Assembly: GCA_033439255.1 (NCBI GenBank)
Contig: CM065891.1
Location: 1,240,001-1,304,000 of the forward strand
Source: Hericium rajendrae
Lineage: Eukaryota; Basidiomycota; Agaricomycetes; Russulales; Hericiaceae
DNA: 64,000 nucleotides
Direction of reading: 5' to 3'
Shown here: positions 1 through 62,800 of the stretch, piece after piece
Position numbering within the stretch: the stretch's first letter is position 1
Layout of the letters: each line of letters begins with the position of its first letter
Position numbers and translations under genes: made by a program
Notes under the pieces: generated by a model
What the model saw: the letters and a program-made list of their open reading frames with translations, nothing else
The model's database searches: none
What the model was told of the DNA's origin: nothing

Positions 1-187
1 TTGAAAGCCATCGTCTTTGTCAGATTTGCTCTTAACTCTGTAGGTATACAAGATGTTAGTGCGCAGGTCTAAAGGTATGGATTTGTCTGAGATACGCGAT
101 GAAATCCGAAGGTCAAAGGACGTATCGGCGGGCGCTTCTAGAGCGATATAGCGCGATGTAGGTTATCCCAGAAAGGCAGGTCTCCTG

Positions 188-235
188 CTAGTCTCCGAGC
201 AGACCTTACACAGAAGAAAGTCGTTCTGTGTTTAA
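188..235 (+). mobile_element. 48-bp mini-insertion, copy 1, with 9-bp target duplication
   Basis: A 48-nt segment is bracketed by the direct repeat ggtctcctg (179-187 and 236-244; by chance extendable to 12 bp). It matches the segment at 39957-40004 at 42 of 48 positions, and that copy has its own, different, 9-bp direct repeat. The element begins ctagtctccg and ends gtgtttaa. Its 3' two thirds form an imperfect hairpin in which cttacacagaa faces ttctgtgtttaag across about 8 nt. It has no coding capacity and no obvious terminal inverted repeats. It lies about 100 bp upstream of the F-box copy A start. The 9-bp duplication is typical of Mutator-like transposons, but the size is far below normal MITEs; class assignment is inference. 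Confidence 0.8.
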
Positions 236-338
236 GGTCTCCTGCTGTAGTTTGTCCAGGCGATATGTAGGTTTCTTCGACTCTCGGCGTTTGCTCAAGG
301 TAGCATACTCAAAATTTGCAACGTAGTAGACATTTACT

Positions 339-35547: not shown

Positions 35548-36398
35548 CTAGACACACGTTTTCCTCGTCAGCACATAACGGAATACAGAAGAACAGAACA
35601 GTGGACGCACTGTGGGGTCGGTGGGGCAGCACACGCCGTTGCCGAGTTGGGAGCGCTGCCGAGCGCAGCTGCGCTTTTGGAGCCTGCCCAGTCGGGCTCG
35701 CAGGATACGCTCTCGTAGCTGACGTTCCAGACGCCAAAGTCCTGTACCCAGTTTGGCAGTCAGACCAGGCAAAGATGAAAGTGAAAAGTAGGCGGCGCAC
35801 AGTATAACCTATGGCGAGAGGCGTGTGGGTGAGTGGTCATGTCGGGCAAAGTGCGGGCGGACGTACCGTAGAAAGACGCGTTAGACGGGAAGAAATTGTC
35901 GGGTATGGATGAAGACGGCCACGCGAGGTCAAAGTTCAAGTAGTTCCCCGCACTGCATGTCTAACGTCAATATACCATCTATAATGCAAAGAAATACACG
36001 CACGCATTTGGGGCGTTGCTAGTTGCATTACACCATCCAGTTTTGCTGAGCGGACAGAGGTCCGTGACTTTAACGACAACGCTCTTCTGCTGCGCGGGGA
36101 AGAAGGATGGGTCGGACAAAAAGGTGTTGAGCAGCGTGAGGTTGAAGCAGCGTCCACATGCAGGGCCGTACGCAGTGCTGCTCCCAAAGGCCAGCTGGTT
36201 GAGCGCGGCAGTCGGATAGTGCGTACTGCCCGCGGTGCAGCCGCAGGACGCGATGAAGTCTTGCGGAAGGGTATAGTGCGTGAGGGTCGCGGTGCCGGAA
36301 GGCGGGTATGAGATCCACGAGGTTGCTTGCACGAGCGTGGGGAGAAAAAGAGCAGAAAGGGCTGCATAGAAATACAGCGTAGGGGGTATAGATTTCAT
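35548..36398 (-). CDS. Secreted GH45-like endoglucanase (subfamily C type, expansin-related fold)
   Basis: This is a predicted extracellular small endoglucanase acting on beta-1,4-glucans. The signal peptide MKSIPPTLYFYAALSALFLP ends around QATSW. The double-psi barrel shows AALNQLAFGSSTAYGPACG, RCFNLTLLNTFLSDP and SVVVKVTDLCPLSKTGWCN. The Asp of TDLCP aligns with the general acid of basidiomycete Cel45 enzymes. After the first intron come GNYLNFDLAWPSSSIP and FFPSNASFYG, and after the second FGVWNVSYESVSCEPDWAG. No carbohydrate-binding module is present. Near 35645-35651 one C appears missing (CCCAACTCGGC), since the duplicate at 39.9 kb keeps the frame into GDSVCCP. Depending on that base the protein ends at 35568 or 35548. 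An inverted broken duplicate lies at 39430-40085. Confidence 0.82.
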
Positions 36399-36552
36399 GG
36401 GTATATACTGGATTTCAAGTCATGGACTTGAGTCGTGACGAACAGAAGAACAGAAGGCCGTGCTCACGGAAGTAGATTAGATTAGATCGGAGGGTGTCGC
36501 GCGTGGGGCGGCCGGAGACGGCTGGAGCCCTCCGTCGTCCCTCCTCTACGGC
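36399..36552. promoter_or_regulatory. Short divergent promoter (GH45-like / Gcn5)
   Basis: About 150 bp separates the GH45-like start and the first plausible ATG of the acetyltransferase. The GH45 secretion gene and a housekeeping acetyltransferase would share this stretch. Confidence 0.45.
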
Positions 36553-39429: not shown

Positions 39430-40085
39430 CGCTACTTCAAGCTCACACTGCTCAACACCTTCCTGTCCGACCCGACATTCTTCCCGGTGCAGCAGAAGAG
39501 CATCGTCGTGAAGATGACGGACCTCTGACCGCCGAGCACAACTGGGTGCAATGCGACAAGCAGTGCGCCGTATGCGTGAGTCTGGTTCACTGCTTTTTAG
39601 ATATATATATTCATATAGGACATGCAGCGCGGGGAACTATCTGAACTTTGACCTCGCATGGCCGTCCTCATCTATACCCAACAACTTCTTCCCCTCCAAC
39701 GCAGCCTTTTACGGTATGTGCGCCGCGCCGCGCCCTGCGTCATCCACTCATCCACACATATTTCGCCTCAGGATGCACTGTGTGCCACCTCATTCACATC
39801 TTTTGCGTGGAGTCTGACTGCCCGGATTGATCGAGAAGCTTTGGCGTCTGGAACGTCAGCTACGAGAGCATCATGCAAGTAGAACTGGCCGGGCTCCAAA
39901 AGCGTCGCCGCATTCGGCAGCAACGCGCCCGATCTGGGCGACAGCGTGTGCTGCCCCTAGTCTCCGTTACGACCTTACACAGAAGATAGTCATTCTGTGT
40001 TTAAGTGCTGCCCGCCGAGCCGACGGTGTGTTGCCCATCCTGCCATCTTACTAGTGTCCTGCTGACGAGAATGCTGTGTGCATAG
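39430..40085 (+). pseudogene. 5'-truncated GH45-like pseudogene, inverted duplicate
   Basis: It aligns with the gene at 35548-36398 but in opposite orientation, from KLTLLNTFLSDPTFFPVQQ onwards, without signal peptide or the first 70 residues. Introns are retained at the same positions, so the copy is DNA-mediated. Lesions are TGA replacing the Cys codon directly after the catalytic TDL motif, a 2-bp loss after WNVSYES, and a 48-bp insertion (39957-40004) in the GDSVCCP codons. Similarity to the 3' flank of the intact gene (gctgacgag...gtgtg..tagg) extends to about 40085, exactly where the AT-rich island begins. Confidence 0.85.
39957..40004 (+). mobile_element. 48-bp mini-insertion, copy 2, with exact 9-bp target duplication
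   Basis: It is flanked by gtgctgccc at 39948-39956 and 40005-40013; neighbouring bases differ, so the duplication is exactly 9 bp and the element exactly 48 bp. The intact GH45 paralogue has this site once and uninterrupted (reverse strand, about 35625-35640), giving an in-window empty site. The element starts ctagtctccg and ends gtgtttaa, like copy 1, and contains the same cttacacagaa/ttctgtgtttaag hairpin. Confidence 0.88.
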
Positions 40086-59882: not shown

Positions 59883-62800
59883 AGCTATGTATAACTATCC
59901 GCTTTGTCTCGAGCAAATTGCACGCAAAGTCGACGCGACTAGTTGACCGAAGGGCGGGAAAGGCGCCGAAAGCACGATGCGCGATAAGAGCCAGGTGATA
60001 CAGCGCAGCGCACGGGAAACGGCAGCGAGACTGGAACAGACAAGAAAAAAGACAGGAGGGGAGCACGCCGGAGGTATAGGCCGCAACTAAAGAGCGCGGC
60101 GGGAGGTGGCCGTTGCGGATGACGAGGGCAGTCCGCGCGCAAGTGGCGCGCTCGGCCGTTGCGATCCATTCAATCACCGCGGCACTTCCTGCCAAGTCAT
60201 CCCCACATCGTCAGCATCGTCAGGCACTCCGTCGTCCACCAACTTGTTATTACACGTCGATGCACTTTCTCCCTCTTAGTACTCTTGTGTACCGGGATGG
60301 ACTTCATCGAATTGTTATTCCAACCAGATCCGGCTCGCCGTACAACCCATGACCACGTTCAGGTTGCTCGGGCATCCCGGGAACCGATACAGCACCTGTC
60401 CCCGTCAAATCCTCGTGAGCAAGATGTTTTGCTTCTGACATGGGTGCAGTATTCTATGAGCCCTGACTTGCCCTGCATTCCATCATTGAAGCCCTAATTT
60501 TAGCAGTTTCTTCCTTTGAGTTTCGCTGATACATTCACTCCCCTGAAGTCGGGACAGGCGCGCGCGGACAAAGGGCAGGTCATCGGGACAGGGCCAATGC
60601 TGTTATGCCCTCGTCGAATCGGCCTTGATATATTTCCTTCCTCGGTCGAAAATTTTGCTATTCACTTCTACCGAACCAGCCGCTAGTTCCCAAGTAAAAG
60701 CCTCCGAGCCGCCGGAATATTCGACGTGGCGCATGGATGCTGCAAACAAGTTGTATTGATCCCATGGTTGCTTTTCGTCCCCTCATCACGGTCGCTCAAC
60801 GCTCATCTGCGGCGTTCCCCAGGAATTCTCTTGTGATATGATGTGTTCCGCTGTCAAAATAAGGCTCAAGTGGACGATTTCATGGATCGGCGCTGCCAGC
60901 GGGGAAATATCCGATAAAACATATGCATATAGCGACTTGTATCCTGCTTTTGTTGATGCGTTTACTTACCTGTGTTTTAATTTATCTTCGAGCAGGTCGC
61001 TGCCAGACCCCCTGCAACCTCGACTCTCAGAATCAATCTACTGGTATCCTTGTCGTCTTTCACCACCGACCTGCCTGCCGAAACGCATGTCAGGATTGAA
61101 GGTTCTTATCAGGACTTTCCCGCCCCACCTCAGAAGCTACACTTCCGTTAGTTCTAGCTAGTTCTAGGTTCGATACTCCTCATTTCTAGGTTCGCTTTAC
61201 TTCGTGATGGTGCGTCCGCAGCTCTTCGGTGTTCCTTGATGCCCATCCGCCGAAGCCCCGAAGCAGCGCCCTCGCAGCCGACGACGAATCCTCGCCGGAC
61301 GGCTGAACCTCGACTGCGGCGAATGAATGTGCGTCGTCTGCAGGGATTGTCGCCGATAATCAGGCGAGTTCATCACAATCTCCGATGTGGCTCCCTGGAC
61401 GTAAGAAACACTGCCGAACCTACGATGTTCTTGCCTGCACAATATCAGGTGCTTCAATATTCACAGTCATACAGTTTCTTCGATGGCGGGGGCGGCCGGA
61501 TCAGCACGGTGCATTACGCATTCTGTACGCAAACGACATCCGCAGCTCGAGGTCGCAAATGGCAATGCGACACAGAATAACCATCCCAGTGAAAAGTCAT
61601 CAAGCTCAAGGGTCGTTATAGCTAGGTGGTCGAAAGCGATCATGGGGCATTCATCAACGAGGAAGACGGGCTATGCTCAATCCTCCCGGCGGTAGGCGTA
61701 TATGCTAACTCCTTTGGGCGACCAAGTCCTGGATCTACGGCGCCCGTAGGCACCCACAAAAACCTACACGTTGCCGGCGGGCACGCCACGCCTCCCGCAC
61801 AGTCCGTCGAGCACAAAAGCCCACCCATGCCTCAGGCAATGACGTCGCATCCCTTCGCGTTCCCTGCCAGTGGTACGGCTACGTCGCGACTCTCATTGAT
61901 TGCATTTCTAGCCCGCCACGCCGACGTCGATCACGCAAATCATAACACGCACCGATCGCGCTTCGCGAGGCACGCACGATGCGCACTTGCCGCCGCGCAA
62001 CGTAAGCCCCCCACATCCGCTCCGCGATCCATACATATCCACACTGGCGACGGGCAGTCCAGGAACGGTGGCTTTGCTACTTTGCGTTCGTATTTGTATT
62101 GTATGCACGTTTCTGCGGGCATGCATGTGGGCGTGCCGGACGGTCCTGCACTAGTCAGGGTGCGTTTTGGTCCCTTATGCAGACGTTACGCAGGAGATAG
62201 CCATTCTTGGGTGCGCTTGTCCGTGCATAGTGCGTCATGCATAGTAGCGCGACATATCGACTGATACCAGCTCCCCAGATCTGCATCCGGAGGCAGCTGC
62301 GCTCGATACGGGGCCTGATCTTCGCCGATGTCGAAAGAGCCCTTAGCTTCCGTGCGCAGGGCCGTCGCAGGGCCCCGGGCTGCGTCCGCGCGCTCGAAAG
62401 CTAGCTTGACAGCTTACAGCACGCGCGCCCAGTGCAAGATATCTGATATGCACTAGCCGGAGCGGGTCCAGTCCGGGCGCGATCGTGCTCTCGGGCCGCG
62501 CGTCTTGCTATCGGCGTCGCGGGACGCAAGAGGATTAATATAGGACGAGTGCGCGCCTCGCGCGAGCGAGCGCAGATCGTTGGGCATGGGCGGGTGCCTG
62601 TAGGTGAAACACGGGGGACAACGGAGGGCGCTATCAGGCCGTCCGGGGACGCGATCTAATTATTACGATCTTGACACTTACAGTATTGATTGCAACATGT
62701 CTGCAGAATGGGCTGGCTGACAGAGTGTTTTGGCACCGCGGGCAAGTGGCCTCCGTGTCCGAGTCGGAATGGTACCTTTGTTACTACACCTGGCCAGATC

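Follow-up and report, generated by a model that had tools for sequence, protein, structure and literature searches.

The window, by which we mean the whole stretch of 64,000 nucleotides of Hericium rajendrae DNA analysed here, holds three plus-strand copies of a very short mobile element, each lying between two (unstranded) copies of a short target duplication. Copy A (189..236, locus L054), delimited from the sequence and a duplication scan, is 48 bp long, runs TAGTCTCC...TTTAAG, equals the family consensus exactly and is framed by the 9-bp duplication gtctcctgc at 180..188 and 237..245. Copy B (39958..40005, locus L012), likewise 48 bp long, belongs to the TAGTCTCCGTTACGACC subfamily and breaks an exon of a gene that resembles an endoglucanase V-like (GH45-like) paralogue; its left duplication is tgctgcccc (39949..39957), and the right one, at 40006..40013, is 8 bp long, namely the left one minus one C. 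Copy C (62168..62209), a degenerate third copy of 42 bp that the first-pass annotation had missed, stands between ggtgcgttt (62159..62167) and ggtgcgctt (62210..62218), which differ by one mismatch (8/9 identical). For the first two copies that annotation had described a pair of 48-nt segments identical at 42 of 48 positions in its own phase, each bracketed by 9-bp repeats, and segments and repeats are indeed present; the phase, however, is one base off as judged from the ends of the whole family. Since family copies begin with TAG and mostly end with TTTAAG, we place copies A and B at the coordinates given above. The internal hairpin that had been claimed is also seen: in the DNA fold of copy A (189–236), the arms CTTACACAGAA and TTCTGTGTTTAAG enclose the loop GAAAGTCG at 205..236 on the plus strand, at −7 kcal/mol with a z score of −2.55, and 3 of 200 shuffled sequences were equally stable.

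The region around copy B aligns with a minus-strand paralogue (approximate extent 35600..36419) at ~76% identity across 540 aligned bases. In this paralogue the insertion site is unoccupied: near 35.63 kb, GTGTGCTGCCCC runs directly into ACCGACCCCACAGTG without an insert. The 12 bases to the left of the site are identical in the paralogue and the interrupted gene, and 11 of 15 agree on the right, counted after the second duplication copy; this empty site was read by eye from the printed sequences, because the automatic alignment opened no clean gap there. The first-pass annotation had likewise seen the paralogue's site as unoccupied and had taken it to show a true insertion and not a coincidence, a view that the empty site upholds together with family matches and 9-bp duplications far above controls (see below). 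The insert of copy B places a TAG in the paralogue's reading frame. At ~57 bp including the duplication, the element is a source of small gene-breaking insertions, of which the GH45-like copy is an example. As to the identity of the gene, the first exon of the paralogue matches ‘Endoglucanase V-like protein’ structures (E 1e-12) and the Pfam domain EXPB1_D1; this exon, at 35979–36419 on the minus strand, is found by EXPB1_D1 and not by the Pfam GH45 model. The latter (PF02015) has zero matches in the window and matches at two places only, both on contig C8. We thus call the gene GH45-like: the earlier GH45 label keeps the support of the structure match, but not that of a PF02015 match in the window.

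The first-pass annotation had proposed a search of the whole genome, which we carried out on the 46.8 Mb assembly (19 contigs) with reversed patterns as controls. A ribosomal protein S9 encoded in the window shares 96% identity with a protein of Hericium alpestre, followed by hits at 67–70%; by this one protein the host is a member of Hericium or stands very near to it. A 34-base core pattern, allowing up to 3 mismatches, matched 44 times against 0 for its reverse, a 25-base left-end pattern 61 times against 0, and a 19-base core 124 times against 4, so that further copies do exist; positions were taken for 100 of the 124 core matches. The genome holds about a hundred copies of ~37–54 bases, many of them still framed by a 9-base duplication. 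Subfamilies diverge just inside the left end, with TAGTCTCCGAGCAGACC, TAGTCTCCGTTGCGACC, TAGTCTCCGTGGCTGACC and TAGTCTCCTATGCAGACC as their variants. When up to 400 bases on each side of 72 loci were compared all against all, only five short matches of 34–66 bases appeared, one of them within a single locus; hence the copies are not segmental duplications. Of thirteen 48-bp copies counted, four equal the consensus throughout, three of them with an exact duplication. The family is real and looks to have been active recently. It is multi-copy and non-coding, 37–54 bp being too short for any protein, and the three loci examined against Rfam gave no match. We also observed that the insertion flanks of L062, L067 and L072 are similar over 52–66 bases, perhaps reflecting another repeat family, and that in L056 (~700–920) two copies of different subfamilies lie within ~160 bp, with a 38-base stretch common to their flanks.

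Among the 83 copies whose flanks could be read, 55 have a 9-bp duplication that abuts the fixed left end TAGTCTCC, exact in 39 and with a single mismatch in 16; of 413 swapped-flank controls 5 have one, one of them exact. The second copy of the duplication was sought up to 760 bp away for L044, and up to 130 bp away for all other copies and all controls; copies free of a duplication stay in the denominators, and the 83 sites include two with little left-end similarity, an extra site in L003 and L106. In a scan of 81 copies that left the length free, the longest exact repeat was 9 bases in 22 copies, 10 in 10, 11 in 8, 12 in one and 13 in two, whereas 243 swapped controls peaked at 4 and reached 8 at most; this is what a constant 9-bp duplication plus chance extension would give. 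A later set of 10 copies, part of the remaining 19-base core sites and mostly chosen from other subfamilies, comprised 5 in which an exact duplication abuts the left end, one in which the duplication has two mismatches, three with none and one (L112) whose flank was too short; in L118 of this set the left end is unrecognisable. The 9-bp repeats thus recur at other copies, the outcome on which the first-pass annotation had made its reading depend. In 28 of the 83 copies no duplication was detected at up to one mismatch, and its loss there is likely decay with age.

The sites into which the element inserts are not a random sample. Across 25 positions, the target profile built from the empty sites of the 55 duplicated copies sums to 2.34 bits, compared with 0.96 on average and 1.53 at most in 2000 random draws, and its correlation of 0.61 with its own reverse complement was reached by 0 of 2000 position permutations. 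Within the duplication, G is the commonest first base (28/55) and C the commonest last (25/55). The target profile is non-random and palindromic. Such two-fold symmetry is expected when two transposase subunits attack both strands at a fixed spacing. It favours strand transfer by a DDE enzyme without proving it, since a retroposon whose nicking enzyme acts as a dimer could produce this pattern too. The first-pass annotation had hinted at Mutator-type or integrase-like transfer; the palindromic target lends weight to a DDE or integrase-like process, while the Mutator part of that hint draws on the duplication length and nothing else.

Across the family, the left end is constant and the right end is variable. 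Among all 55 duplicated copies, 53 measure 37–54 bp, one 111 and one 742. In the set defined by the left-end pattern only, 43 of 61 copies are duplicated: 41 of them fall at 37–51 bp, with 47 and 48 the commonest lengths, and the other two measure 111 and 742 bp. Put differently, 37 of these 43 are at most 48 bp long and 40 are under 50 bp, the remainder being the copies of 51, 111 and 742 bp; no duplicated copy of the 61 lies at 20–36 bp, a range most of which the 25-base pattern could detect. The earlier picture of the unit as a fixed 48-mer must therefore be given up, the right end sitting anywhere from 37 to 54 bp from the left one in 53 of the 55. The lengths 37 and 47–48 differ by about one helical turn; we make no claim of helical phasing, since intermediate lengths are populated.

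The right ends have regularities of their own. The terminal base, counted in 46 copies, is A in 24, G in 18, T in 3 and C in one (A or G in 42/46). Identical right ends occur at unlinked sites with different duplications, as in the 37-mers L045, L055 and L077 (duplications exact) and L051 (one mismatch). Short copies ending in TA comprise four of 37 bp, of which three have exact duplications, two of 40 bp, of which one does, and one of 39 bp, plus a 39-mer of another subfamily, and their final A differs from the base that the 48-mer has at that place; three further copies of 40–42 bp end in TG or GA. The 37–54 bp forms have no terminal inverted repeats beyond one or two shared end bases, in agreement with what had been noted for the short unit.

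The family has two longer relatives. The first, L044, is 742 bp long, starts with the whole 48-mer, ends in inverted orientation (TAGTCT...AGACTA) and is flanked by the 9-bp duplication ggtaacccg; near its two ends lies an inverted repeat of 38–43 bp with 91–92% identity. A longer hairpin is predicted at its left end (−16.2 kcal/mol, z −6.15), with a stability that none of 200 shuffled sequences attained. Within the locus (L044:3260-4001), the mini-element is whole at the left end and the hairpin is missing at the right, as if lost from one side. The second relative, L070, corresponds to the left part of L044, stops after 111 bp and is flanked by an exact duplication of a different sequence, catcgctca. 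Apart from L044 itself and this fragment, the interior of L044 has no match in the genome. The arm of the longer hairpin occurs exactly in L044, L020 and L070; at up to 3 mismatches its pattern gave 12 genome matches against 11 in the control, and hence only the three exact matches were used. A scan of 361 kb of locus sequence (overlaps included) for TAGTC...GACTA with a 9-bp duplication returned L044 only. The suggestion that a longer autonomous element might share the ends is thus borne out as to a longer relative with the same left end, but no autonomous element was found.

We also looked for a partner enzyme around the family sites. MULE domains match six times in the genome, the nearest family site being 86.5 kb away. 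For hAT there are 33 matches, compared as 26 places because the other matches are second pieces of the same places, and the nearest lies 8.6 kb from a family site. Reverse-transcriptase domains have at least 150 matches (150 of 294 candidates scored), the nearest 12.4 kb from a family site. None of these 182 places (6 + 26 + 150) falls within 8 kb of the 101 family sites, a few of which, C1:2767467 for instance, match the core by chance. That site and C1:2777011 form an inward-facing pair (+/−) that we considered as the ends of an autonomous element and rejected, as it is an inverted duplicate region whose match extends beyond the core; the two loci concerned (L107 and L108, C1 ~2767.4 and ~2777.0 kb) lie ~9.5 kb apart and apparently match the core by chance. 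With no MULE transposase linked to the sites, the length of the duplication is all that the Mutator assignment draws on.

Altogether, we consider it somewhat probable that the family is a non-autonomous DNA element mobilised in trans, by a DDE transposase that recognises one end strongly and is permissive about the other. The moved molecule would be DNA and the enzyme of DDE type, perhaps Mutator-like to go by the duplication length. Acting in trans, the transposase would recognise TAGTCTCC at the left together with the adjoining hairpin region and would accept a loosely defined second end ~37–54 bp away; it would cut the two target strands 9 bp apart and join both ends there, and repair would yield the 9-bp duplication. 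The constant 9-bp duplication, the symmetric target, the bounded size, the recurring right ends and the inverted ends of L044 lead us to this reading, and the presence of MULE domains in the genome (6 matches) also counts for it. From the TA-ending short copies, whose final A departs from the 48-mer, we infer that the short copies arose by losing nearly all of a proper right end.

Several observations count against a DDE transposase. A fixed and a ragged end are also what 5′ truncation of a retroposon would produce; the variable ends lie in or just past the hairpin, where a reverse transcriptase might stall; and the additional A seen at several right junctions could have been added without a template. 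Furthermore, the short form is without terminal inverted repeats, none of the 6 MULE domains lies within 86 kb of the 101 sites and none of the 26 hAT places within 8.5 kb, the interior of L044 is nearly unique, no duplication was detected in 28 of 83 copies and 5 of the 10 later copies are not exact.

More tentatively, and at odds we would put somewhat below even, 37–48 bp of nuclear DNA may constitute a complete mobile unit. One recognition end plus a hairpin would then suffice, with the second end at nearly any position close by, most often a purine; the transposase complex would act on DNA that hardly exceeds its footprint, or else on a single strand or an RNA hairpin.

The strongest rival, albeit one we regard as unlikely, is that a very short hairpin RNA spreads by retroposition. 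In the reverse orientation, the copies have a common 3′ end (the hairpin followed by TCGGAGACTA) and variable 5′ ends; a reverse transcriptase of LINE type would begin at this constant 3′ end and break off within the hairpin or beyond it, the RNA strand would end ...CGGAGACTA, and the accompanying endonuclease would make cuts in the two strands at a distance of 9 bp. Such a route would fit one fixed and one ragged end, the A that differs from the parental base at the right junction of several short copies and the commonest stop (TTTAAG), which adjoins the bulge of L044's longer hairpin. A partly RNA-mediated route is also suspected for the yeast mitochondrial cluster GC42 by the authors of a study of it (PMC4478555). 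Against retroposition, the duplications act as a constant 9 bp instead of varying in length as those of retroposons do. Nor do the lengths form the ladder that truncation would leave: compared with SINEs and LINEs, the family in reversed orientation has a fixed and a variable end, but of its 43 duplicated left-end copies 41 lie at 37–51 bp, two are longer and none is at 20–36 bp. The fixed end has no A-rich or short-repeat tail, L044 has inverted ends, and the reverse-transcriptase domains compared, 150 scored out of 294 candidates, are all more than 12 kb away from the 101 sites. The palindromic target profile also speaks against retroposition, although a dimeric endonuclease could produce it as well.

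One could also imagine that a long DNA transposon moves by one-ended transposition, joining its one proper end and an arbitrary downstream break, with the short copies as dead-end products. L070 fits this idea well, since it is the left part of L044 with an apparently arbitrary cut and yet has an exact 9-bp duplication, and the 742-bp L044 has the same left end. Arbitrary breaks, however, predict many intermediate lengths, whereas only two duplicated copies exceed 54 bp, with the reservation that part of the left-end copies were examined over 260 bases downstream only, which could hide such lengths. Moreover, right ends recur, and forms of 47–52 bp exist in several subfamilies with different interiors, which points to the short units themselves as the movers. 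Given the missing intermediate lengths, we hold one-ended transposition to be quite improbable.

That the insert creates a spliceosomal intron (an introner), with the duplication supplying a splice site, has a next to negligible chance of being right: ~50 bp is the size of a fungal intron and some copies read G|TAG...AAG, but the duplication starts with GT in 4/55 copies and ends with ACC, as needed on the other strand, in 5/55, so that exact splicing is not generally possible and the idea was rejected on the duplication sequence, and the sites are not enriched in open frames of at least 120 codons (12/31 versus 56% of 620 control positions). A Helitron was dismissed too, as Helitrons are not known to duplicate their target and a 9-bp duplication is present here.

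Returning to a short DNA unit moved in trans, the family suggests that the smallest nuclear mobile elements can be very short and that the enzyme involved copes with a second end that is hardly defined. If the 37–48 bp unit is self-sufficient, it would mark a lower bound on the length of nuclear transposons, one that equals or undercuts the shortest lengths usually given for MITEs. How ends only 37–48 bp apart pair, or whether pairing is needed at all, is a mechanistic question that can be put to the test. Tools for finding MITEs seek inverted repeats and lengths of ~50–800 bp and would therefore miss elements like these; similar families may thus be common. In the open-access literature, to which our search was confined, no title returned describes a nuclear element of such size and features, and the papers returned by one of the searches make no mention of Hericium.

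Among known systems, MITEs are similar in behaviour. They are generally 50–800 bp long and have terminal inverted repeats (PMC6171319). Like them, the present family is short, non-coding, dispersed and multi-copy, has a duplication of constant length and was probably moved in trans; it differs in that it is mostly 37–49 bp long, lacks inverted repeats in its short form and has one variable end. The first-pass annotation had called the unit much smaller than described MITEs; 40 of the 43 duplicated left-end copies are under 50 bp, set against the range of 50–800 bp (PMC6171319). The family works like a MITE but fails two defining features, inverted repeats and size.

MULEs make duplications of 8–11 bp, and some are without terminal inverted repeats (PMC6446971). 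The 9-bp duplication of the family lies inside that range and non-TIR MULEs offer a precedent, but the family is far shorter, has no MULE transposase linked to it, and its ends are at most candidate MULE ends. The Tm1 Mutator/Foldback elements of root-knot nematodes share asymmetric outer end motifs, foldback-like terminal inverted repeats and duplications of 8–10 bp, mostly 9 (PMC3169594). Compared by description, Tm1 differs in its size of hundreds of bp to 2.6 kb, its multi-motif inverted repeats and its linked transposase (PMC3169594).

Another comparison is with GC42 of yeast mitochondria, a GC cluster that is a mobile palindromic unit of 42 nt with a putative target duplication and AG target nucleotides, the mechanism of which its authors leave open (PMC4478555). 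It differs from the present family in being mitochondrial and GC-rich and in its AG target nucleotides (PMC4478555). Finally, the internal eliminated sequences of Paramecium, many of which are 26–28 or ~45 bp long, are held to be cut out by a piggyBac transposase that has been domesticated (PMC3464196). These segments are unique-copy, decayed and developmentally excised, in contrast to multiplying units with 9-bp duplications; their excision nevertheless indicates that an end spacing as short as that of the present family can be handled (PMC3464196).
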